From a virus: 29,555 nt of DNA. Positions 139-26,760 of this stretch are shown here, piece by piece. The stretch is taken from positions 1 to 29,555 of IMG/VR virus record IMGVR_UViG_3300042868_008753. The stretch is one strand, 5' to 3'. The notes beneath the pieces were generated by a model that was not told where the DNA came from, made no database searches, and was given only the letters and a program-made list of their open reading frames with translations. Every line of letters begins with the position of its first letter. The first letter of the stretch is position 1. The translations under genes and the position numbers were made by a program.

Positions 139-432
139 ATGACTAAGAAACATCGTGGAGTACCCTGGTGCTCGGGTCCAGATCCCATGCACCACCGAAT
201 GTATGTGCAATTTGGCTACAACCGTGTGAGTGCTAGAGGTCGTGGCGAAGCTTGGCATTTGACCTGGCCGCAGTGGCGTGACATCTGGCTACCTCACTGG
301 CATCAGCGTGGTCGCTCAGCTGACTGTTTGTGCCTGGCTCGCCAGGACATGGAAGGTGATTGGCATGTGGACAATGTAGAACTGATCACACGCCGAGAAC
401 ATGGACGCCGAGTACGGAGACAGTACCAATGA
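139..432 (+). CDS. Small HNH-endonuclease-like phage protein
   Basis: A 97-residue basic protein rich in Trp, His and Arg. The middle reads WPQWRDIWLPHW, then RGRSADC, CLARQD, and WHVDNVELIT near residues 74-83, ending in an Arg-rich tail. Small phage proteins annotated as HNH-like endonucleases share this order: a W..IW segment, RGR, an (M)AR.D motif and a closing NV.(I/L).T segment. The canonical HNH catalytic triplet is not clear to me, so the function is tentative. It opens the plus-strand cluster and overlaps the next gene by an ATGA. The Shine-Dalgarno match before the ATG is weak (TAAGTAAG), so the exact start is less certain than its existence. Confidence 0.55.
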   Translation: MTKKHRGVPWCSGPDPMHHRMYVQFGYNRVSARGRGEAWHLTWPQWRDIWLPHWHQRGRSADCLCLARQDMEGDWHVDNVELITRREHGRRVRRQYQ

Positions 433-968
433 TGTGGACCTGGCAACCCACCACAGGCCTAGATGTGCCTGTGATTGTGGCCATGGCGCAAACACACTTT
501 GAAACCGAAATTGATACGGTGTTTACACCTGATCCCATTGTGTATGCCAGGAACTTGACACTGGCCACTGTGCAACAATTTTACAATCCTCAAACCGAAC
601 TGTTAACTGTTGCTAAAGAACACGAAACTCAGCGCATCTTGGCATATACATGGGCTATCCGCGGCGAAAGATCGCCATGGTCAGATGAGGAGATGATCTG
701 TGCGCGAATGGCACATGTGGACTTGTCACTGCCTGTACGACAGCGATTACGCCTTGTGACAGGCATGATTGTGCAGTGGGAAACTTGGGCACAAGATTGT
801 GGAGTGCCAGTGGTGTGCTCCACAACAATGCGACGAGATCAAGCGGGATTCTTATCCGTACATCGTAAGCTGGGCTACGATGTGAGAGGCAGCTACGCCT
901 ACAAAAGACTAACCGAAAGGAACAACTATGTCACAACTACGAGCATTGGGAACCAAAATATTAATTGA
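429..968 (+). CDS. GNAT-like acetyltransferase-fold protein
   Basis: This 179-residue protein starts at the ATGATG that overlaps the stop of the preceding gene; GGAGA ends 8 bases before the ATG at 429. Its second half suggests a GNAT fold: a beta strand (ILAYTWAIRG), an Arg-rich helix after LSLPVRQRLR, a long helix with WETWAQDCGVPVV, and then a GFLSVHRKLGYDVRGSYAYK segment like the GF...GY...G...K end of N-acetyltransferases. No substrate can be inferred. Its 3' end overlaps the GroES gene by 41 bases in another frame. It is the middle gene of a three-gene plus-strand cluster. The GNAT assignment is inference from motif pattern only. Confidence 0.5.
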   Translation: MMWTWQPTTGLDVPVIVAMAQTHFETEIDTVFTPDPIVYARNLTLATVQQFYNPQTELLTVAKEHETQRILAYTWAIRGERSPWSDEEMICARMAHVDLSLPVRQRLRLVTGMIVQWETWAQDCGVPVVCSTTMRRDQAGFLSVHRKLGYDVRGSYAYKRLTERNNYVTTTSIGNQNIN

Positions 969-1188
969 AAGAATTGAAGCCAGCACAACCACAGCTGGAG
1001 GCATTGTGTTGCAATCAGCAACAGAAGCGCCACGAGCAAGAATTTTGAGTGTGGGACCACAAGTCCGAGAAGATGTTGCGGCGGGCAACATCATTGTGGT
1101 AGATTGGTCAAAAGTTGGTGTGTTTAACTTTGAAAATTCAAAACAGTATGTGGTAGATGAAAGCACTGTGTTGGCTGTATTAGAGTGA
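928..1188 (+). CDS. groES: Phage co-chaperonin GroES (Cpn10)
   Basis: An 86-residue Cpn10 protein. The start at 928 follows AAAGGAACAACT, a strong ribosome-binding site inside the end of the upstream gene. The N-terminal strand (LGTKILIERIE) and the mobile loop with GGIVL at about residues 24-28 match GroES; IVL is the tripeptide that docks on GroEL. The C-terminus (ESTVLAVLE) matches the DILAIVEA-type end. Between them, the stretch that forms the roof hairpin in E. coli GroES is about ten residues shorter. Known phage co-chaperonins such as T4 gp31 replace host GroES so that GroEL can fold the capsid protein. It lies on the strand opposite the capsid gene and converges on dps. Confidence 0.9.
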   Translation: MSQLRALGTKILIERIEASTTTAGGIVLQSATEAPRARILSVGPQVREDVAAGNIIVVDWSKVGVFNFENSKQYVVDESTVLAVLE

Positions 1189-1280: not shown

Positions 1281-1712
1281 TTACTCTAATGTGCTACGCA
1301 ACTGCCAGGTCTGTTTTTCCAATGCCAACACGCGATCCTGTGCGTAGTTGGCAATTTCTTGGTGACCTTCTGCTTCGGCAGTGTCAATCAATTCACGATA
1401 TTCTTCAATCAAGTGATCTAGGTCTTCCATGACCATTTCCAAATAGTAATCAGCTGTGCCTGACAGTTCACCTGTGTCAATGTGGCTTTCGTCCAAGACT
1501 TCTTGCATGTCACAGGGCATGTATTCACGCAGAGTACGCAACAGTTCACCAATGATATCAATTTCACTTTGCAAACTTTCGTAGATACCGCCCAGCAATT
1601 CATGATCAGCTGTGAAGTTGCGTCCGGTGATGTTTACATGTGCCACATGTGATCTAAAATACGCAACAAAGTTATCGCGAAAAATTTGGGTTAGTTGTTC
1701 TGCTGTGTTCAT
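1281..1712 (-). CDS. dps: Dps-like ferritin-fold protein
   Basis: A 143-residue Dps/ferritin-superfamily protein. Numbered from its start, H25, H37, D52 and E56 keep the exact spacing of the E. coli Dps ferroxidase ligands H51, H63, D78 and E82; the position of D67 is G41. HVNITGRNF corresponds to the HW..G..F segment and EKQTWQLRSTLE to the usual EK..W.LR..L end. The N-terminal lysine-rich DNA-binding tail of E. coli Dps is missing. Dps cages take up and oxidise Fe(II) and protect DNA. The gene overlaps the upstream putative ejection-protein gene by ATGA and has AAGGA before the ATG, so it is translated as the last gene of the internal-protein run. Virion packaging of the product is possible but is inference. 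Confidence 0.85.
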   Translation of the reverse strand: MNTAEQLTQIFRDNFVAYFRSHVAHVNITGRNFTADHELLGGIYESLQSEIDIIGELLRTLREYMPCDMQEVLDESHIDTGELSGTADYYLEMVMEDLDHLIEEYRELIDTAEAEGHQEIANYAQDRVLALEKQTWQLRSTLE

Positions 1713-2551
1713 CTTGGTCCTTGCAATGCTCGTTTAGCGGCTTCTTGTCTAATCATATCATTAATACTTAGATAATCAGTCATGGCAGCTCCAAGGCCTA
1801 ATACACCTGGAACTACACCAGTTACAGCACCAATAGTGCTTTGTGCACCAGGTATTAATTGTGTGCCTGGCATGTTCATAGCTGTTTGCCTAAACACTTG
1901 AGCACCTTGCTGTGCACCTGCACCAGGATTTTCTGGTGATCTGGCAGCACCCAAGGCAGCGGCCTGTGTTTGTGCGCCCATTATGCCTGTGCCTAAACCA
2001 CCAACTCTTTGTGCTCCGCGTTGTGCCATTTGTGCATAAGGTCCAGCAGCCTGAGCAATCGCTTGTGCCGCACGGTTGGTTTCATCACTTTGTTGCATCA
2101 CACGCCATACATCCTCAGGGTTACGAGCAGCTGGTTTAAACATAGAACCAACTGCACGCTGACCCATCTCAGCCAATCGTTTAAATGGAGGTAACATGCC
2201 TGCAACATCACCAGCTGTGGTAGCTACAGGATAGTCTCGGCGTACAGATTCAATAAAAGGCCCTGCACCCAGGGATCTAGCACCCATTTCTGGCAATCCA
2301 AACAACAGACTGTTTACCGCGCTACCAATAAATGGCGCTACAGGACCCATGCCTGGAGGCACAGCTAAATTAGGTCTAGAATTGGCTGGCAAATCAGTTG
2401 CAGGACCGGCTGGTGCTGTGGCTGTTGGACTGGCTGGTGCAGTACCTCGTGTAAGGCCGTTATCTTTTAGTTTTTTGTTAATTTCATCATCTGTTGCATT
2501 ATCATCAAACAACGCAACAGTGCCATTACTCAAATAAATTTCTTTGGCCAT
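1709..2551 (-). CDS. Putative internal/ejection virion protein
   Basis: A 280-residue protein. Residues 1-35 (YLSNGTVALF, then DDEINKKLKDNG) form a short domain of the kind seen at the N-termini of phage internal proteins. A Pro/Ala/Thr-rich linker follows. The rest is Ala/Gly-rich with weakly hydrophobic stretches, including FIGSAVNSLLFGLPEMG and a C-terminal ALGAARSPENPGAGAQQG region. Composition and position suggest a DNA-ejection or internal core protein, but I recognise no defined family. The ATG shares one base with the stop of the 846-residue gene (TAATG). The stop overlaps the dps start, so the three are translationally linked. Confidence 0.6.
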   Translation of the reverse strand: MAKEIYLSNGTVALFDDNATDDEINKKLKDNGLTRGTAPASPTATAPAGPATDLPANSRPNLAVPPGMGPVAPFIGSAVNSLLFGLPEMGARSLGAGPFIESVRRDYPVATTAGDVAGMLPPFKRLAEMGQRAVGSMFKPAARNPEDVWRVMQQSDETNRAAQAIAQAAGPYAQMAQRGAQRVGGLGTGIMGAQTQAAALGAARSPENPGAGAQQGAQVFRQTAMNMPGTQLIPGAQSTIGAVTGVVPGVLGLGAAMTDYLSINDMIRQEAAKRALQGPR

Positions 2552-5091
2552 TACGGTCTACTCCTAAAATCAACTACACCCCTACCTTGTCTCAGAGCTT
2601 CTAACACTGGCATCAAGTCACGATAAATTTTGTCTCCAATCTTGTCATCAAAGTCAGATCGAATTCGTGCAGGACTCAACTGTTGATTAGCTGAGCCAAG
2701 ATACTTGGCAAATTCTCGTTGATATTGAATATTGGCCTTGGCAATTTGCGTTTGAATTATAGCAGCCTGCGGCGTATTACGCAAACTTGTAGCAAAAGCA
2801 TCAACCACTCGTTGGCTTTCACGCTCGGTGTTTAGTTGACTACTTGATAATCCACTTTGTGTAATACCAGCCAATTCTAATCTTCTAAGATCATTAAGCA
2901 ATTCTTGGAATCGTGTTTTGTCTTGCGGAGTATTAATCCTAACCGTGTTAGATATTTCTTCCAAGCGTTTTTGTACATCTCCCCCTTGAGCCTGTACAAA
3001 TGCAGTGAATGCTGGACTTTGTAAACTGTTGGCAAAATCAGGTCTTTCGCTAAGAGTACGAGTAATTCTATCAGTGGTATCAAGCAAACTCCGAGCATTT
3101 GCGGCTTTATCAGATTCCCTGGTAGCAATCTCAGTATTTTGTCTAAGATTCTCACGTGGACCTGTTTCTTGAGTTTGCAGGCGTTCTCTAGCCGCCATCA
3201 TTCTAATTTCATTCTCCCGATCTCTAGCACCTGGACTTAGGCCACCACCGCTGGGAACGCCACCACCTGCGCCTCCAGTTTGCGCACGGCCATCAGCTTG
3301 TGCTTGTTGCACACGATTTTGTAAAGGTGCACTGGCGCCGGCTGGTGAAGTTAATCCTGCGCGATTCAATGCAGCCTGTGTTTGAGGTCCAATAATGCCA
3401 TCCACAGTCAAACCGTTGGCTCTTTGAAAAGCTCGAACTTCCTCTGATGTAGTGGGATATCGTGCTGGTTGTTGTTGTGCTCCTGCTGGTGGTGCTGGTG
3501 GTTGTTGTGCACCTGCTGGTGGTGGTGGTGCTGGTGGTTGTTGTGCACCTGCTGGTGGTGGTGCTGGTGGTTGTTGTGCACCTGCTGGTGGTGGTGCTGG
3601 TGGTTGTTGTGCACCTGCTGGTGCACCAACTCTTCTTGGTGGCATTAACTGACCACTGAGCATGTCAATTTGAGGTGCTGTGCCTTGCAAATCTTCTAGA
3701 GTATAATTGGTTTGTTCTTTGGCATTGTAAGCGCCAAGATATCGATTGGCTGCTTCAGGACCAGCGGCTCGTACTTTGGCTTGTAATTCAGCCCAATTCT
3801 GAGCCAATGCTATATTGGCTTTTTGTACATCTCTAGCAGCCTGGTCACTTAGAGTACCTTGCACACCCATTTGACGCAGAGCATTGGCCTGTTCAGCTGT
3901 GGCAATGTTGTTGGTACCAACTTGTCTAAATTGACTACCGCCTGCACGGCGTTCCAAAATCCAAGTTCCTGGCACCTTGCCAGTGGGATCGCCAAACACA
4001 GTAGCACCAACTTCGGTGCCTTTCAATTGCTGTGCACCTGCGGCAGCAACAACCAATTGTCTAGGATCAAGTTCTTGACCTGTAGTGGCACTGAAGCCTG
4101 CAATGGGTCGACTACCACGCATGGTCAATACCACAGGTTCATTGCCAACCATGGCAGTCACAGTGGTATCTTTGAGACCTAATTTTTCAGCTTCGCGACC
4201 AGCCAATTCAGGGCTGATGTAACCCATTAAAATCATCTTGGCAAAACTACCTTGGTCACCAGAACCACGCAACATTTTGGCCAAAGGACCAAAATTGCCA
4301 GTTTCTGTGGCTCGTTCATAAATTTCTCGCACTTCTCTTTCAGTGCGTTGTTGTGTGCGGATCCGCACCATTTGATCCTGTGCGGCTTGATTGAACTTGG
4401 CCTGTTGTTCAGCGCTGAAACGCGGATCGCGACCCAGAGTCAACAGTTTCAATGCATCATTGCCTGCTTCAGTAAATGCCTGCGCAAATTCTGCGCCCAT
4501 GGCAGGTGCTGGTTGAGCTGCGCCCATGGCAGGTGCTGGTTGAGCTGCGCCCATGGCAGGTGCAGCCATTCTGATTGACTCACTTTGTGGAACTAAATTA
4601 TACCTAGCCAGTTGACTGGGCAATGGTCGCATACCTGGTTCTTGACCAAAAGCACCACCTTGATATAGACCTTGTTGATCAGCAACAACAGTGGGTGCAA
4701 CTGGCGCCACTGGTGGCATTTGACTGATTTCACCTTGTGTGCCTTCAGCGCCAGCACCCTGGGCAGGTGGACGCAATGTTCTTACCTGAGTTGAAGGCAA
4801 CTGTGCTGGACCAGCTACTTGTACACCTGGTTGAGGTTCTGGTACCTGTCCCATTTCCATGGGATTGACTGGTAACACAGTGGGAGTAAGTGGATTGGCT
4901 GCACTGAGATCTTGCACTGAACCACGAACAGTCATTTCTTGTTGACCAGTGACAGGATTGGTCTTGATAGTTTGAGTCACAGGCGTAGCATTGGCAGCTT
5001 CAGCTTCCAGTCTACGACGGCGTTCTTCTTCAGTTTCTACTGGGTTATAGGCCATGTAGTTGGGTTGGTATTGAATTTGTCCAAATGCCAT
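2551..5091 (-). CDS. Large internal virion protein with peptidoglycan-binding domain
   Basis: An 846-residue protein. The first ~200 residues are Pro/Gln-rich and include a tandem AMGAAQPAP repeat. A mixed helical region follows to about residue 480, then a Pro/Ala/Gln linker of PPAGAQQP units. Residues about 545-580 (EEVRAFQRANG, DGIIGPQTQAAL) match the PG_binding_1 fold: V..FQ...GL..DG..G..T..AL. The last 200 residues are strongly helical and charged (RFQELLNDLRRLELAG and similar). I see no catalytic peptidase or muramidase motif. The likely role is in virion entry across the cell wall, with the domain anchoring to peptidoglycan. AAGGA precedes the ATG, 10 bases after the upstream gene. Confidence 0.7.
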   Translation of the reverse strand: MAFGQIQYQPNYMAYNPVETEEERRRRLEAEAANATPVTQTIKTNPVTGQQEMTVRGSVQDLSAANPLTPTVLPVNPMEMGQVPEPQPGVQVAGPAQLPSTQVRTLRPPAQGAGAEGTQGEISQMPPVAPVAPTVVADQQGLYQGGAFGQEPGMRPLPSQLARYNLVPQSESIRMAAPAMGAAQPAPAMGAAQPAPAMGAEFAQAFTEAGNDALKLLTLGRDPRFSAEQQAKFNQAAQDQMVRIRTQQRTEREVREIYERATETGNFGPLAKMLRGSGDQGSFAKMILMGYISPELAGREAEKLGLKDTTVTAMVGNEPVVLTMRGSRPIAGFSATTGQELDPRQLVVAAAGAQQLKGTEVGATVFGDPTGKVPGTWILERRAGGSQFRQVGTNNIATAEQANALRQMGVQGTLSDQAARDVQKANIALAQNWAELQAKVRAAGPEAANRYLGAYNAKEQTNYTLEDLQGTAPQIDMLSGQLMPPRRVGAPAGAQQPPAPPPAGAQQPPAPPPAGAQQPPAPPPPAGAQQPPAPPAGAQQQPARYPTTSEEVRAFQRANGLTVDGIIGPQTQAALNRAGLTSPAGASAPLQNRVQQAQADGRAQTGGAGGGVPSGGGLSPGARDRENEIRMMAARERLQTQETGPRENLRQNTEIATRESDKAANARSLLDTTDRITRTLSERPDFANSLQSPAFTAFVQAQGGDVQKRLEEISNTVRINTPQDKTRFQELLNDLRRLELAGITQSGLSSSQLNTERESQRVVDAFATSLRNTPQAAIIQTQIAKANIQYQREFAKYLGSANQQLSPARIRSDFDDKIGDKIYRDLMPVLEALRQGRGVVDFRSRP
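3470..3622. repeat. Tandem 33-36 bp repeats coding a Pro/Ala/Gln linker
   Basis: About four near-identical units, each containing GTTGTTGTGCACCTGCTGG on the plus strand, encode PPAPPPAGAQQ-type repeats just before the peptidoglycan-binding domain of the 846-residue protein. Unit length differs by whole codons, as expected from in-frame slippage or recombination. Confidence 0.9.
4493..4563. repeat. 27 bp tandem repeat, 2.6 copies
   Basis: Two exact 27 bp units (4493-4519 and 4520-4546) and a third partial unit to 4563 encode the AMGAAQPAP repeat near residue 190 of the 846-residue protein. The identity suggests a recent in-frame duplication. Confidence 0.95.
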
Positions 5092-6731: not shown

Positions 6732-9700
6732 TTACATTCTTGGTGCTACTGGACCTGCAATTGGTGTGTAGCCAGGTGCATTGATAGATCGCAAATACTG
6801 CTCGATATTCAATGGTGTGTACATTTGTTGCAGACCCCAGGGTTGATCTGGAGCGCCTGGCACATTGTTGTAAGCCAAGGGATCAAATGTGGGTCCTGGT
6901 TGATAGGCGTGTTGACCCCAATAGTAGCGACCTTGTACAGGGCTAGTGGTATTGTAAAACACAGGTGGTTGTATCCAACCTGGATTCAAACCTGGATTGA
7001 CCACACCATCTACACTGCCCCAATTAATTGGTGGCAACGGACCATATGGTGCTCGTGTGGCTGGTGGTTGTGGTTGTGTTACAACACCGCCTACCACAGC
7101 GCCTATTGCGCCACCAGCGTCGGCATAGTTTCCAGTGGGAGGAGTAGTAGTCTGCAGAGGGGGTTGTACTTCTGGTGCAACAGGTGCAGTTACTGGTGCA
7201 GTTACTGGTGCAGTTACTGGTGCAGTTACTGGTGCAGTTACTGGTGCAGTTACTGGTGCAGTTACTGGTGCAGTTACTGGTGCAGTTACTGGTGCAGTTA
7301 CTGGTGGTGATATTCCAGTACCAGTGCCAATACCTGGACCAACTGGTTCAACAACTGTGCCTGCACCAGTGCCAATACCTGGACCAACTGGTTCAACAAC
7401 TGTGCCTGCACCAGTGCCAATATTTGTGTCAGGTCCTGGAATAACTGGTCCAGCAGTACCAGTGCCAATACCTGGACCAACTGGTTCAACAACTGTGCCT
7501 GCACCAGTGCCAATACCTGGTATTGCGACATCAACAGGTGGTGTAAAGATTGGTGCAGTACCTTGTCCAGGCACTGGAGGTGCTATTTCAATTGGAGCTA
7601 CATCAACTGGTGGTGTAATAACTGGAGGAGTTGTTATAACACTGCCAATATTTCCAGAGCCAGGTGCTGTCACAGGGGGTGTATAAATTGGTGAAGTTAC
7701 AGGTGGCGTGACAGGTGGTGCAATTACTTCGGCTACAGGTGGTGCAACTGGTGCAGTAACAGGTGGTGTAACAGGTGGTGTAATTACTTCAGCTACTGGT
7801 GGTGCAGTAACAGGTGGCGTAACAGGTGGTGTAATTACTTCGGCTACTGGTGGTGCAGTAACAGGTGGCGTAACAGGTGGTGTAATTACTTCGGCTACTG
7901 GTGGTGCAACCGGTGCAGTAACAGGTGGCGTAACAGGTGGTGTAACAGGTGGTGTAATTACTTCAGCCACTGGTGGTGCAACTGGTGCAGTAACAGGTGG
8001 CGTAACAGGTGCAGTAACAGGTGGTGCAATTACTTCAGCTACTGGTGGTGCAGTAACAGGTGGTGTAACAGGTGGTGCAATTACTTCAGCTACTGGTGGT
8101 GCTATTTCAATTGGCGCTACATCAATCGGTGGTGTGTAAGTTGGTGGTGCAGTTACAGGTGCTGAAACCGGCGGTGCAGTCAATTCAGTCACTGGTGGTG
8201 CAACTGGTGCAGTTACAGGTGCTGAAACTTCAGCAGTGGGAGGCACAACTGTTTGACTTGGTGGTACAGTCACTTGTTCCAATGGCTGTGTGGGGTTTAT
8301 TGCTGGTCCTGGTGTGGCTGACACGGGTCCTGGTGCTGTTTCACTTGGTGTAAGTGTACCAGCTGATGCGGCATCACCTATGGGCACTCCTTCGGTAGTC
8401 CACAAGTTACGAACAGGATCCCATCTAAAGCCACTCATGAGACTGGTTGGATCACCCTCTTGCCAGGCTCTCCAGGCATTGGCGTCACTGTCCCAGATAT
8501 GTCCACCAGGACCAAATAGTTTACCTGGTGTGGGCGATTCTGCATAGTATCTTACACCTGGTCGCGCACCAGTGGTTAACTGTCCATCAATTGAAACTGG
8601 CTGTCCACTATTGATAGCTGATTCATACTCGGCTACATTGACAGTTTTACCCGAATCCAACACAACTTCTGGACCATTGGCTCCTTGATATATGGTGCCA
8701 GGTGCTGAATCACTCATACCTGTTGATGTCACATCTACTGGCCCACTAGGTTGTGCAGGCACTGCTGCCGCTTGTTGTGCGACATACTGAGCTTCAGTAA
8801 TACCGCCACGCCAATTGACCCAGTCTGGGTTTGGATGTTGTAATCCACCTTCTGCACTGTACACACCATAAGGCGTTTGATACACTACAGATCCATCTGG
8901 AAGGTAATAAGGTGTGGCTTGTCCTTGTGCCCACTGCATAGCAGGTGGCAAGTTGCTGACCGGAGGTGCAACAGGAGCAGGCTGTGCTACTTGAACTGGA
9001 GGCTGTGGTATTTCACCAGGTGATGCAATTTGTGGTGGTGTGTCACCTGGCAATTGATTGATCACAGGAGGAGCTGTGGCAGGTGCTTCAGCAATGATTG
9101 TACCAGTTTGATCATATATCATTGTGTCACCAGGTGCTTGGAATCCAGGACCAGCCGGTGTTTCAACTGCCACTGTGCCTTCAGGCATCCAACTAGGAAC
9201 AGTGGGTGTAGAAACAGGCGATGCAATCTGTGGTGGAGGTGCTACTGGTTGTGGTGCAGGTGCAGGTGCTTGTGCAAGTTCTGTTGGTGGTGCAACAGGT
9301 GCAACAGGTGCAGATGCCTGCAACACAGTGCCATTGGCATTGTATATGGTACTGTCGCCAGGCATTTGATAGCCTGTAGCGCCTGATGCTGTGGTCACTG
9401 CCACTGTGCCTTCAGGCATCCATCCAGGCACATCAGTTTGGCCAAACATCATGCTTGCTCCGCCTTGTTGTACAACTTCACCAGTATAGGCGTTGATCTG
9501 TGTGGCAGTACCTGGATCAATATACACCAGTTCACCGTTAGGGCCTGTGCCAATAGCACTGCCAGGAGGCTGTGGCAAACGGTCCATGCCAGCATAAGGT
9601 GAACCAAATTGTTGATCTATTGCGGCACCACCAGGCGCATAAGTCACTGTTTCGGCAGCTCGCAAAATATCACCAGTATAGGCATCAATTACTTGTCCAT

Positions 9701-10667
9701 TTTGAGGGTTGATAAATGCTGGTCTACCCTCAAATGTACCAATGTTGGTGTCAACTGGCTGCGGCAACATTTCTGAATATGTGGGACCAGTGTCAAACAA
9801 ATGCGGATTCATTTGACGGTATTCAGGTGAGTTAGTGCCATACTGCACAACATCCCCGTTGTAAGCATTGTAACTGGTGCCCGTGGCTTCATCAATAATG
9901 GTTTGAAATCCAGTTCTGGGATCTGAACCATAACTTTGCCCAGCCTGCAATGGAATAAGATCTTCAGCTGTGTATCCCAATGGGCTAATGGGCTGTAAAC
10001 TGTTACTATCAAGAACCTGACCAGCTTGATTGTACAGTGTGCCATCTGGTGCTTGCCAAGTCCAGCGATCTTGACTATAATTGTAAGTGGGTTCGGCACC
10101 AGCAACAGGAGGTTCAATACCTAGATTGGCATATTGTGCTTGGGTGCCTGCATCAACAAACAAACTCCGAGCTGTGGCTGCTGAGCCAGTGGGCATAGAA
10201 TACAAAATTGAATCAATGATTTCACCAGCATTTTGTCCAGCATTTAGAGTGGCTGCTACCGACGCTGCCTGGGCTGTGCCTGCGTTTACTCCTGATGCGG
10301 CAAGGTTGTAGGCAATTTGATTTTGACTTAGACCTTGTTGGGCCATTTGTGCGGCATCTGCCGCAATGAATGCCGCATCTTCGCTGATTGCCGCAGCCAC
10401 TGTTGACGATCCTGAACTGATGTAGCTACCAATTGTGCCGCCAATAAAGCTGGTGGCACCAGATAACACACCTTGCTTGATAGCATCACCTAGACTAGCG
10501 CCTTGCGCGGCTGAAATGCCTGCTGCCAGTACCCCAGTACCAATAGCAGTTGCGGCAACAGTGCCTACTGTGCTACCAATAATTGCAGTGGCCAAAGCGC
10601 CACCAATTGCGGCACTGACGCCGGTGTAGGCTGCGGCGCCAAGTATAAGAGGGACGGCTGCTGGCAT
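6732..10667 (-). CDS. Giant repeat-rich virion protein (membrane-active N-terminus)
   Basis: A 1311-residue protein whose start shares one base with the previous stop (TAATG), with GGAGATC upstream. Residues 1-95 are Gly/Ala-rich and hydrophobic with small-residue zipper spacing (GGALATAIIGSTVGTVAATA), which could insert in membranes. Residues about 190-640 contain repeated hairpin-like units (INAYTGEVVQ, IDAYTGDILR, IYNANGTVLQA, IYDQTGTIIAEA). Residues about 740-1200 are low-complexity Pro/Val/Thr/Ala repeats. The last ~90 residues are non-repetitive and aromatic (INWGSVDGV, YYWGQHAYQPG, WGLQQMYTP), suggesting a conserved folded end. I do not know a named family. Position suggests a virion protein taking part in DNA delivery or cell contact. 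Confidence 0.65.
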   Translation of the reverse strand: MPAAVPLILGAAAYTGVSAAIGGALATAIIGSTVGTVAATAIGTGVLAAGISAAQGASLGDAIKQGVLSGATSFIGGTIGSYISSGSSTVAAAISEDAAFIAADAAQMAQQGLSQNQIAYNLAASGVNAGTAQAASVAATLNAGQNAGEIIDSILYSMPTGSAATARSLFVDAGTQAQYANLGIEPPVAGAEPTYNYSQDRWTWQAPDGTLYNQAGQVLDSNSLQPISPLGYTAEDLIPLQAGQSYGSDPRTGFQTIIDEATGTSYNAYNGDVVQYGTNSPEYRQMNPHLFDTGPTYSEMLPQPVDTNIGTFEGRPAFINPQNGQVIDAYTGDILRAAETVTYAPGGAAIDQQFGSPYAGMDRLPQPPGSAIGTGPNGELVYIDPGTATQINAYTGEVVQQGGASMMFGQTDVPGWMPEGTVAVTTASGATGYQMPGDSTIYNANGTVLQASAPVAPVAPPTELAQAPAPAPQPVAPPPQIASPVSTPTVPSWMPEGTVAVETPAGPGFQAPGDTMIYDQTGTIIAEAPATAPPVINQLPGDTPPQIASPGEIPQPPVQVAQPAPVAPPVSNLPPAMQWAQGQATPYYLPDGSVVYQTPYGVYSAEGGLQHPNPDWVNWRGGITEAQYVAQQAAAVPAQPSGPVDVTSTGMSDSAPGTIYQGANGPEVVLDSGKTVNVAEYESAINSGQPVSIDGQLTTGARPGVRYYAESPTPGKLFGPGGHIWDSDANAWRAWQEGDPTSLMSGFRWDPVRNLWTTEGVPIGDAASAGTLTPSETAPGPVSATPGPAINPTQPLEQVTVPPSQTVVPPTAEVSAPVTAPVAPPVTELTAPPVSAPVTAPPTYTPPIDVAPIEIAPPVAEVIAPPVTPPVTAPPVAEVIAPPVTAPVTPPVTAPVAPPVAEVITPPVTPPVTPPVTAPVAPPVAEVITPPVTPPVTAPPVAEVITPPVTPPVTAPPVAEVITPPVTPPVTAPVAPPVAEVIAPPVTPPVTSPIYTPPVTAPGSGNIGSVITTPPVITPPVDVAPIEIAPPVPGQGTAPIFTPPVDVAIPGIGTGAGTVVEPVGPGIGTGTAGPVIPGPDTNIGTGAGTVVEPVGPGIGTGAGTVVEPVGPGIGTGTGISPPVTAPVTAPVTAPVTAPVTAPVTAPVTAPVTAPVTAPVTAPVAPEVQPPLQTTTPPTGNYADAGGAIGAVVGGVVTQPQPPATRAPYGPLPPINWGSVDGVVNPGLNPGWIQPPVFYNTTSPVQGRYYWGQHAYQPGPTFDPLAYNNVPGAPDQPWGLQQMYTPLNIEQYLRSINAPGYTPIAGPVAPRM
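7189..7306. repeat. 12 bp tandem repeat, nine perfect copies plus a partial
   Basis: GTTACTGGTGCA is repeated head to tail nine times without a mismatch (7189-7296), followed by ten bases of a further copy. On the minus strand it encodes ten VTAP units of the 1311-residue protein. Perfect identity at the DNA level implies recent expansion. Confidence 0.97.
7321..7520. repeat. 45 bp repeat, three exact copies plus partials
   Basis: Exact 45 bp copies lie at 7321-7365, 7366-7410 and 7459-7503. A diverged segment begins at 7411 and a 17 bp partial copy at 7504. They encode 15-residue GIGTGAGTVVEPVGP units of the 1311-residue protein. Confidence 0.95.
7696..8110. repeat. Degenerate tandem repeats coding PPVTPPVTAPV...AEVI units
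   Basis: About eight units mix ACAGGTGGTGTAACAGG blocks with a GTAATTACTTC(A/G)GCTAC block. They encode PPVAEVI(A/T)PPVTPPVT(A)P repeats. Units vary by insertion or loss of 12-15 bp sub-blocks, always in frame, a sign of repeated unequal recombination. Confidence 0.9.
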
Positions 10668-25206: not shown

Positions 25207-25425
25207 TTAATGTGTTTGATTTTCGTCCAGGCCAGCTTGATGCAACATAAAACAGGTTTGGCATGCTATGTAAGGCTCATCTGGATCCAGTTCATACACT
25301 GTGATCTGTTGTTCCAACAGCATGGCCGTGATGGCAAAATGCTGTGTGTGTTCGGGACACAGCGTGGTCACTGTGTTGCCCAGGCTCACAAGAAACTCAC
25401 CCCGCTGAACCAAGGGATTCTGCAT
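25207..25425 (-). CDS. Small CxxC protein, possibly zinc-binding
   Basis: A 72-residue protein overlapping the end of the glycosyltransferase gene by 29 bases in another frame. It contains C23 with H26 and H29 (CPEHTQHF) and a C55-x-x-C58 pair (CQTCFMLH), a spacing that could hold one zinc ion. GGAAT lies 11 bases upstream of the ATG. The acidic, soluble sequence has no membrane segment. I do not recognise a family. It could be a small partner of the two enzymes upstream. Its 3' end forms part of a weak hairpin (25198-25217) just before the portal promoter. Confidence 0.6.
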   Translation of the reverse strand: MQNPLVQRGEFLVSLGNTVTTLCPEHTQHFAITAMLLEQQITVYELDPDEPYIACQTCFMLHQAGLDENQTH

Positions 25426-26143
25426 GTAAATCTATTCCTGCGGCATCGGCCAGCATCTCAGCCAGAAACTCACCGCGATTGTGTCCGCGTGTGCCATGGT
25501 AATGAATGATCCTGGCATGTGAGATAGGCAAGGTATTGAAAGGACCATGTTGACCAAGTTCAGGCAAGGTGCGTCCTGACTCTGCTTGCCAGTTCAATTC
25601 AGGATGGTGTGCATCTTCCCAGGAAATACCTTGACTCCAAAACATTTTGTTGAAGATCACTTGTTCTTGATCCCAGATCGCCAAGTTCCAGTTGTCAGCA
25701 ATGTCTTCACCAATCCGCCATGTTTCTGCGCTCATGTGTGCAGGATAGTAACGCACAGCGGCATTGAAGTAATGTTCAAACTGTTCGTGCTTGGGAGGTG
25801 TGGTCCAGTTGAAAAGACGGAACTCAGGCCAGCGTCCAAAGATTTCTACAGGTTTTAGGATTAATGTATCACTATCCAAGTACAAGATGTTGCAAGGTTC
25901 ACGGTGCCACAGTGCATGGATCTTTTCCCAATTGCGCTTGAACATGTCTACTCTGCTTGTGGCCATGTCATCAAACACAATGCCTTCCCATTTGCCGCGT
26001 AGGTTTTTCTTTGCACTGGCCATTGATGCTTCAAACATCCGTTGATAGCTGGCTCGCACTTGGGGTGTGCCTGCTGATTCAATACCAAACTGTCCTGTGG
26101 TTTCCAGGATTTGGCAGTTGGTCCATACTACATAATTTTTCAT
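25397..26143 (-). CDS. GT-A-fold glycosyltransferase
   Basis: A 248-residue protein. NILYLDSDTLILKP at residues 85-98 carries the metal-binding D90-S-D92 motif after a hydrophobic strand. WDQEQVIFNKMFW at about 157-169 matches the DQ..(L/F)N segment found after DxD in GT8-like and related GT-A enzymes. The C-terminal IIHYHGTRGHN is like the HF.G metal-ligand end of these families. It would transfer a sugar from a nucleotide-sugar donor; the acceptor is unknown (virion protein, host glycan or DNA). The start overlaps the methyltransferase stop (ATGA), and the ribosome-binding site AAAGGAACAG lies inside that gene's last codons, so the two are made together. Confidence 0.72.
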   Translation of the reverse strand: MKNYVVWTNCQILETTGQFGIESAGTPQVRASYQRMFEASMASAKKNLRGKWEGIVFDDMATSRVDMFKRNWEKIHALWHREPCNILYLDSDTLILKPVEIFGRWPEFRLFNWTTPPKHEQFEHYFNAAVRYYPAHMSAETWRIGEDIADNWNLAIWDQEQVIFNKMFWSQGISWEDAHHPELNWQAESGRTLPELGQHGPFNTLPISHARIIHYHGTRGHNRGEFLAEMLADAAGIDLHAESLGSAG

Positions 26144-26739
26144 TTCTGTTCCTTTGTAATTGCTATGATTCTATCATCTGCGCGGTGAGCAAATCCGCGA
26201 TAGTAATCCACAGTGTGTGGCTCCGTGACCCAATCCGCAATGAACCGGCGTAGCACATCAGTGTTGGCATCGTCTTCAATGTCTTCAATGAAGTATGTGC
26301 CGCCTGGCTGCACAAACTGCCAGTAATTTTGAAATGTGGCCATTTGCGATTCTACATCATGTGCCCCATCGTCAATGACAAACTGATACTGCTCGAGGTC
26401 TGGCACATGCTGGGCGTCAGTTGAATCAATGCCCCAGTGCCATGTAACCGATTTCAATTGGTCTTGGAATGGTCGGGCCTGGTTGAAACCCTGGCGTAGG
26501 TCAACACCAGTCAGAGTCACAGAATCAAAGTAGTGTTGCCACAACAGCATTGAGCCGCCGGTCATTACACCAATCTCCAGGATACTGGCCAGCGCACGGT
26601 GTGGTTCAAAATGCCGTTCGTAATACTCAATGTATGAGTGCATGGTGCCTTTGTCACTGAATACAGTGACCATTTCACCGGGAGTGTTGGCCGCATGTTC
26701 TGCTACCAGATTGTTGTACACGGCTCTTAGTGGTGTCAT
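26140..26739 (-). CDS. Class I SAM-dependent methyltransferase
   Basis: A 199-residue protein from the ATG at 26739, which has AAAGGAAC before it. The SAM-binding fold is clear: motif I EIGVMTGGS at 55-63 after ILEIG, the acidic end of strand 2 at D80 (LTGVDLR), VIDDGAHD at 121-128 and the GGTYFIEDIE strand at 146-155. This D-D-G-x-H and EDIE pattern is found in CmcI-like methyltransferases that act on sugars or small molecules and in O-antigen or glycan-tailoring clusters. The pairing with a glycosyltransferase suggests it methylates a sugar, but that is inference. An AATAAATA element precedes it. The cassette is unusual inside the packaging module. Confidence 0.8.
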   Translation of the reverse strand: MTPLRAVYNNLVAEHAANTPGEMVTVFSDKGTMHSYIEYYERHFEPHRALASILEIGVMTGGSMLLWQHYFDSVTLTGVDLRQGFNQARPFQDQLKSVTWHWGIDSTDAQHVPDLEQYQFVIDDGAHDVESQMATFQNYWQFVQPGGTYFIEDIEDDANTDVLRRFIADWVTEPHTVDYYRGFAHRADDRIIAITKEQK

Positions 26740-26760
26740 TGCTGTTCCTTTCAAGTCTAT

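Follow-up and report, generated by a model that had tools for sequence, protein, structure and literature searches.

A Dps-family mini-ferritin gene closes the late operon of a group of freshwater podoviruses

What does the last gene of this phage late operon encode, and what would its product do at that point of the infection? The window, a 29,555-nt stretch of viral DNA (IMG/VR record IMGVR_UViG_3300042868_008753), carries on its minus strand a short ORF (dps, Table 1) that a preliminary description had called a Dps-like ferroxidase gene coupled to ejection-protein genes. The ORF product matches the Pfam Ferritin family PF00210 with 44.5 bits (cutoff 24.5, E = 1.9e-11) and phrog_3636 with an E value of 2.9e-25, and its top match among solved structures is HP-NAP (PDB 3t9j, E = 1.4e-13, residues 1–141), which places its homology to Dps, at the level of sequence comparison, far above chance. 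The AlphaFold (AF2) monomer model (pLDDT 96.8, pTM 0.90) consists of four long helices and a short BC helix (residues 3–27, 33–60, 69–75, 87–114, and 118–142), and the ferritin helix E is absent. Foldseek ranked HP-NAP 3t9j first (TM 0.94, rmsd 1.5); its 50 top-ranked PDB structures are without exception Dps-type mini-ferritins. The four-helix fold expected in the preliminary description was thus recovered, and the ORF is confirmed as encoding a Dps-family protein. The median dN/dS of 0.10 across 57 pairs of close dps homologs indicates a gene under purifying selection.

Table 1. Positions of dps, its predicted metal-site codons, its neighbours in the window, and Dps fusions in other loci
Feature	Position	Strand	Basis or remark
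dps, 143-aa Dps/mini-ferritin	1281..1712	(-)	Pfam, PHROG, and HP-NAP matches; AF2 model
His25 codon, predicted ferroxidase ligand	1638..1640	(-)	82/82; aligns with HP-NAP His25
His37 codon, predicted ferroxidase ligand	1602..1604	(-)	82/82 invariant
Gly41 codon, variable "fifth" position	1590..1592	(-)	Glu in HP-NAP
Gln48 codon, one helix turn before Asp52	1569..1571	(-)	82/82 invariant
Asp52 codon, predicted ferroxidase ligand	1557..1559	(-)	82/82 invariant
Glu56 codon, predicted ferroxidase ligand	1545..1547	(-)	82/82 invariant
ATGA start/stop overlap of dps with the preceding late gene	1709..1712	(-)	Sequence
280-aa Ala/Gly-rich protein, putative internal virion protein	1709..2551	(-)	Position
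846-aa protein with peptidoglycan-binding domain, putative internal/ejection protein	2551..5091	(-)	PG_binding_1, E 1.4e-8
GNAT-fold acetyltransferase-like gene, convergent with dps	429..968	(+)	AF2 and Foldseek
GroES-like co-chaperonin between dps and the GNAT-fold gene	928..1188	(+)	Pfam Cpn10, E 1.5e-7
Dps fusion	L289:2825-4744		Peptidase_S78 after Dps domain, E about 1e-38
Dps fusion	L349:309-2519		Peptidase_S78 after Dps domain, E about 1e-38
Dps fusion	L261:1-1905		Peptidase_S78 after Dps domain, E 3e-8; protein cut at 635
Dps fusion	L336:8700-11012		Peptidase_S78 before Dps domain, E 2e-8
Dps fusion	L343:791-3982		Head-maturation protease phrog_9427, E 8e-63
Dps fusion	L269:6304-8979		Portal/protease families phrog_859 and phrog_18402
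Dps fusion	L271:809-2026		Portal/protease family phrog_859

The predicted ferroxidase site was analyzed in 102 complete Dps proteins from IMG/VR, 81 of them distinct, which gives 82 homologs with the window protein included. His25, His37, Asp52, and Glu56 are identical in all 82, some of which share just 34–37% identity with the window protein, and His22, Asn27, Phe33, Leu39, Leu40, Tyr44, and Gln48 are invariant as well. A loss of the metal residues among homologs, which the preliminary description had considered, is therefore not seen. A review of HP-NAP terms these four residues "perfectly conserved" among Dps proteins and describes iron as bound via His25, Asp52, and Glu56 (PMC4192664). 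At the fifth position, corresponding to Asp67 of E. coli Dps, the window protein has Gly41 and lacks the carboxylate; across the 82 homologs this residue is Gln in 43, Gly in 22, Glu in 11, Lys in 4, and Asn and Ala in one each, with Asp in none. For comparison, 103 free phage Dps proteins were picked by the pattern HWNxxGx[ND]FxxxH, outside which Asp52 and Glu56 lie; both residues are present in 103/103, and residue 41 is Gly in 52 and Asp in 12. Because the fifth position is variable in this way, and is Glu in HP-NAP, a carboxylate there was not taken as defining Dps. Degeneration through loss of the fifth ligand was ruled out, as active Dps proteins and those of phages alike vary at this residue. 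The preliminary count of four ligands out of five was right as to the residues, including Gly at the fifth position, but understates the site, since the family does not keep an invariant ligand there. Judged from these alignments, the core metal site of the window Dps is predicted to be complete, four ligands without Asp41 being its normal state.

Comparison with HP-NAP revealed one further replacement. Trp26, which shifts in HP-NAP upon iron binding (PMC4192664), is Val in the window Dps and Val, Ile, Leu, Ala, or Phe in its clade, never Trp among the 82 homologs, so that the kinetics may differ from those of HP-NAP. Gln48 is found in 30/71 members of the S-EIV1 group and is rare elsewhere. 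The window protein is strongly acidic (pI 4.34, net charge -21), as is the whole clade (pI 4.2–4.8, net charge -11 to -21 in the 82 homologs). It begins with MNT-, ends with -STLE, and has no Lys or Arg before helix A; such residues are absent before helix A in 72/82 homologs and after residue 140 in 79/82. The Lys/Arg-rich N- or C-terminal tail of the E. coli type is thus not present, in line with the preliminary description. The loss of Trp26, the invariant Gln48, and the strong acidity without basic tails are clade-specific traits. Three relatives (L050, L079, and L080) carry divergent dps genes (34–37% identity) in the same locus, at about 1440-2117, whose products have an N-terminus four residues longer and a short basic C-terminal tail, GRHTRRAPI; from its sequence, this tail may possibly have restored DNA binding.

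The late operon was assigned via gene content and order, and dps is the last gene of this leftward unit, with the next genes (GroES-like and GNAT-fold) convergent to it. The overlap reported in the preliminary description is exact: the ATG of dps occupies 1712-1710 and the TGA stop of the 280-aa gene occupies 1711-1709. In 70/75 homologous loci, the end of the preceding long ORF and the start of dps are -4 to +9 nt apart, and so close and conserved a link with the late operon indicates that dps is no metabolic gene placed at random, as had been proposed. The upstream genes are labeled putative internal/ejection genes on account of the peptidoglycan-binding domain in one of them, the Ala/Gly/Pro-rich composition, and the place after the tail genes. 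The 280-aa protein (1709-2551) has no Pfam match and only a weak PHROG head match (E = 0.017), and homologs of the 846-aa protein lie directly upstream of dps in related loci. Repeats of the AGAQQPPAPPP type occur in the 846-aa protein (3460-3650), and a 1311-aa structural-region protein at 6732-10667 contains long PVTAPVT-type repeats.

Downstream, the GNAT-fold gene lies face-to-face with dps in 77/81 loci. Its product (429-968) has no Pfam match; the AF2 model (pLDDT 85.9) gave Foldseek matches to GNAT proteins with E values of about 3e-7, and the gene start fits better at 429 than at 360. It is possible that this gene is a functional partner of dps or encodes a protein acetyltransferase. 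The GroES-like insertion is optional, being found among the first 12 relatives only in L010 (L010:9844-10098), and no groEL-like gene was noted. A terminator hairpin between dps and the GroES-like gene was considered and rejected, as the fold there is not unusual (z -0.16) and no terminator-like site was recorded in the interval.

The first 12 relatives share this arrangement, with dps placed after the same late genes and opposite the same GNAT-fold gene. Sampling independent of dps was obtained by collecting 80 loci through their terminase (TerL). Seventeen of these reach the GNAT-fold gene in the usual orientation, and dps adjoins it in 15/17, while the remaining two loci end 96 and 664 bases past the GNAT-fold gene. 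Among the relatives, all 11 contigs of 30 kb or more have exactly one dps; nine of them were picked by terminase. The gene is a core gene of this freshwater podovirus group, present in nearly all relatives. A whole-record search of the relatives found no Dps joined to the internal protein encoded upstream (open frames of at most 178 aa). No dps match was obtained in MW202484 (Manatee Spring), the closest relative among named phages, whose capsid is 61% identical. Pick-up of a host gene or a prophage origin was rejected, as a pattern-based scan of bacterial genomes gave no relative of the window Dps; TerL matches in bacterial genomes are just 28–33% identical and occur in six genomes.

Comparison with L001 and L010 suggested that the window (1-29555) is a circularly permuted genome with about 5 kb missing between its ends. 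No replication gene was recognized in the window, and the ORFs scanned from the missing region in L010 and L001 had no Pfam match. Between terminase and portal lies a gene pair (25397-26754), one member matching Methyltransf_24 and the other without Pfam match; of the first 12 relatives, L010 has both as well, marking an accessory insertion site.

The preliminary description had proposed checking whether dps also lies beside ejection genes in other phages, and this is mostly not the case. Free dps genes elsewhere adjoin nucleotide-metabolism genes (anaerobic ribonucleotide reductase, thioredoxin, thyX, or dCTP deaminase) or genes for sulfate adenylyltransferase, cytidylyltransferase, DNA polymerase, endolysin, or terminase, and these varied sites indicate that the late-operon placement is a property of the window lineage. 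In the Foldseek viral structure library, Dps folds also lie within proteins named "Prohead protease". A pattern scan for Dps yielded 120 loci, all Dps by HMM, among which 13 ORFs are 288–1063 aa long; ten of these 13 were scanned for domains, and 7/10 contain head-protein domains, from head-maturation proteases or other head proteins (Table 1). The His, His, Asp, and Glu ligands are kept in all seven fused Dps domains. No description of Dps–head protease fusions was found in the open full-text literature. In the tree, the window Dps clade forms a single group (99/100 support) on a long branch, and a direct sister relationship to the protease-fused Dps proteins was unsupported. The fusions belong to other clades than the window gene; they show independently that Dps can be brought to the phage head, and it is they, rather than the window, that support a head location of Dps most strongly.

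Taken together, we consider that the window dps probably encodes an active HP-NAP-type mini-ferritin without a DNA-binding tail, made at the end of the late operon; the dodecamer and its catalysis are here taken from the Dps family and the late timing from gene position. The gene would be transcribed and translated last in the particle-building operon, and twelve subunits would assemble into a hollow shell. Fe(II) would enter through acidic pores and be oxidized by H2O2 or O2 at inter-subunit sites formed by His25 and His37 of one subunit and Asp52 and Glu56 of its partner, with Fe(III) kept inside. In late infection, the cell would be failing and phage DNA exposed to Fe(II)/H2O2 chemistry, and the shell would then lessen the harm that hydroxyl radicals do, during this last phase, to the host machinery and to phage DNA, both replicating and packaged. 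The window Dps is most likely free in the cytosol.

The same position would also suit a protein that leaves the cell within the particle. The shell might be packaged with the internal or ejection proteins and either shield encapsidated DNA from iron-driven damage or enter the next host. The fixed, start/stop-coupled place right behind putative internal-protein genes points this way, as do the different sites at which most other phages keep free dps and the fusions to head-maturation proteases and other head proteins in other lineages, which by analogy would put Dps in the procapsid. Against this, the window Dps has no fusion, extra packaging domain, or tail, and the tree separates its clade from the fused Dps proteins (99/100). 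Furthermore, an assembled shell of about 9 nm would be too large for a podovirus tail, so that delivery would need subunits. We regard carriage in the virion, the leading alternative, as rather unlikely.

Three further readings fare worse. Binding or condensation of DNA is suggested by the PHROGs name of phrog_3636, "DNA binding protein", and by the basic C-terminal tail GRHTRRAPI in the divergent L050 and L079 proteins, but is very improbable for a window protein with no basic residues at either terminus, a pI of 4.34, and a charge of -21. A metal-independent structural or chaperone role, in which the Dps fold was kept and the chemistry lost, could draw on the lost conserved Trp, the variable fifth position, and the GroES-like gene adjoining dps in the window and L010; such a role would not require four metal ligands that are invariant despite low overall identity, and we consider it highly unlikely. 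Binding of Zn and Cd at the HP-NAP metal site (PMC4192664) would fit sequestration of Zn or Mn rather than Fe, or counter-defence through metal withdrawal, to which we assign an equally slight probability. The cytosolic iron-oxidizing mini-ferritin thus remains our preferred reading.

Phage Dps itself is already known (PMC8008677, PMC6669764, and uncultured-phage records bearing the name), whereas three points are new: dps as a core late-operon gene in a freshwater podovirus group, site changes specific to the clade, and the apparently undescribed Dps-protease fusions. Until now, Dps in phages has counted as an auxiliary gene met now and then; in the relatives compared here, assembled from many metagenome samples, it is fixed among the late genes. 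Together with the invariant metal site, this suggests that iron or peroxide stress late in infection constrains these phages in general. It is conceivable, though doubtful, that tailed phages have repeatedly made Dps a head-associated iron-handling module, by protease fusion in several lineages and by coupling free dps to internal-protein genes in the window group; the particle would then carry a DNA-protecting mini-ferritin, a counterpart of ferritin-loaded encapsulins. With the protease fusions, mass spectrometry and iron analysis could directly answer whether phage particles bring along a ferritin-like protectant of their own. Encapsulins carry ferritin-like cargo (PMC5012862). They have a common ancestry with HK97-type capsids, so the parallel would interest both fields.

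Among known systems, HP-NAP (Helicobacter pylori; PDB 3t9j, 1ji4) is close to the window Dps in fold (TM 0.94), length, and absence of a DNA-binding tail. Both proteins have the same helix order, with the BC helix at residues 69–75, and the ligands His25, His37, Asp52, and Glu56 at identical numbers. The window Dps differs from HP-NAP in sequence (28% identity), in Val for Trp26, and, with its clade, in Gly or Gln for Glu41, in Gln48, and in greater acidity; unlike HP-NAP, it is encoded in a phage late operon. The phrog_3636 Dps proteins (Cronobacter GAP52, Salmonella 7-11, Aeromonas LAh, and Synechococcus S-EIV1 and S-SRM01) are likewise free-standing and phage-encoded with the same four ligands, but share about 25–30% identity with the window Dps and are encoded among nucleotide-metabolism and other non-structural genes, and the Enterobacteria and Aeromonas members keep Trp26 and Asp41. 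In the viral structure library BFVD, A0A6J7WGJ1 ("Dps DNA-binding ferritin-like protein", uncultured Caudovirales phage) comes nearest, with 47% identity and TM 0.96. Dps proteins of Bacteroides "Gratiaviridae" gut phages (PMC8008677) and of Lactobacillus phages (PMC6669764), proposed to raise the oxidative tolerance of the infected cell, belong to other phage families and hosts and are not described as core late-operon genes. The protease-fused Dps proteins (L289, L349, L336, L343, L269, and L261) share phage origin, fold, and ligands with the window Dps, whereas they are embedded in proteins of 639–1063 aa (L261 cut at 635), form a separate clade, and are directly tied to the head.
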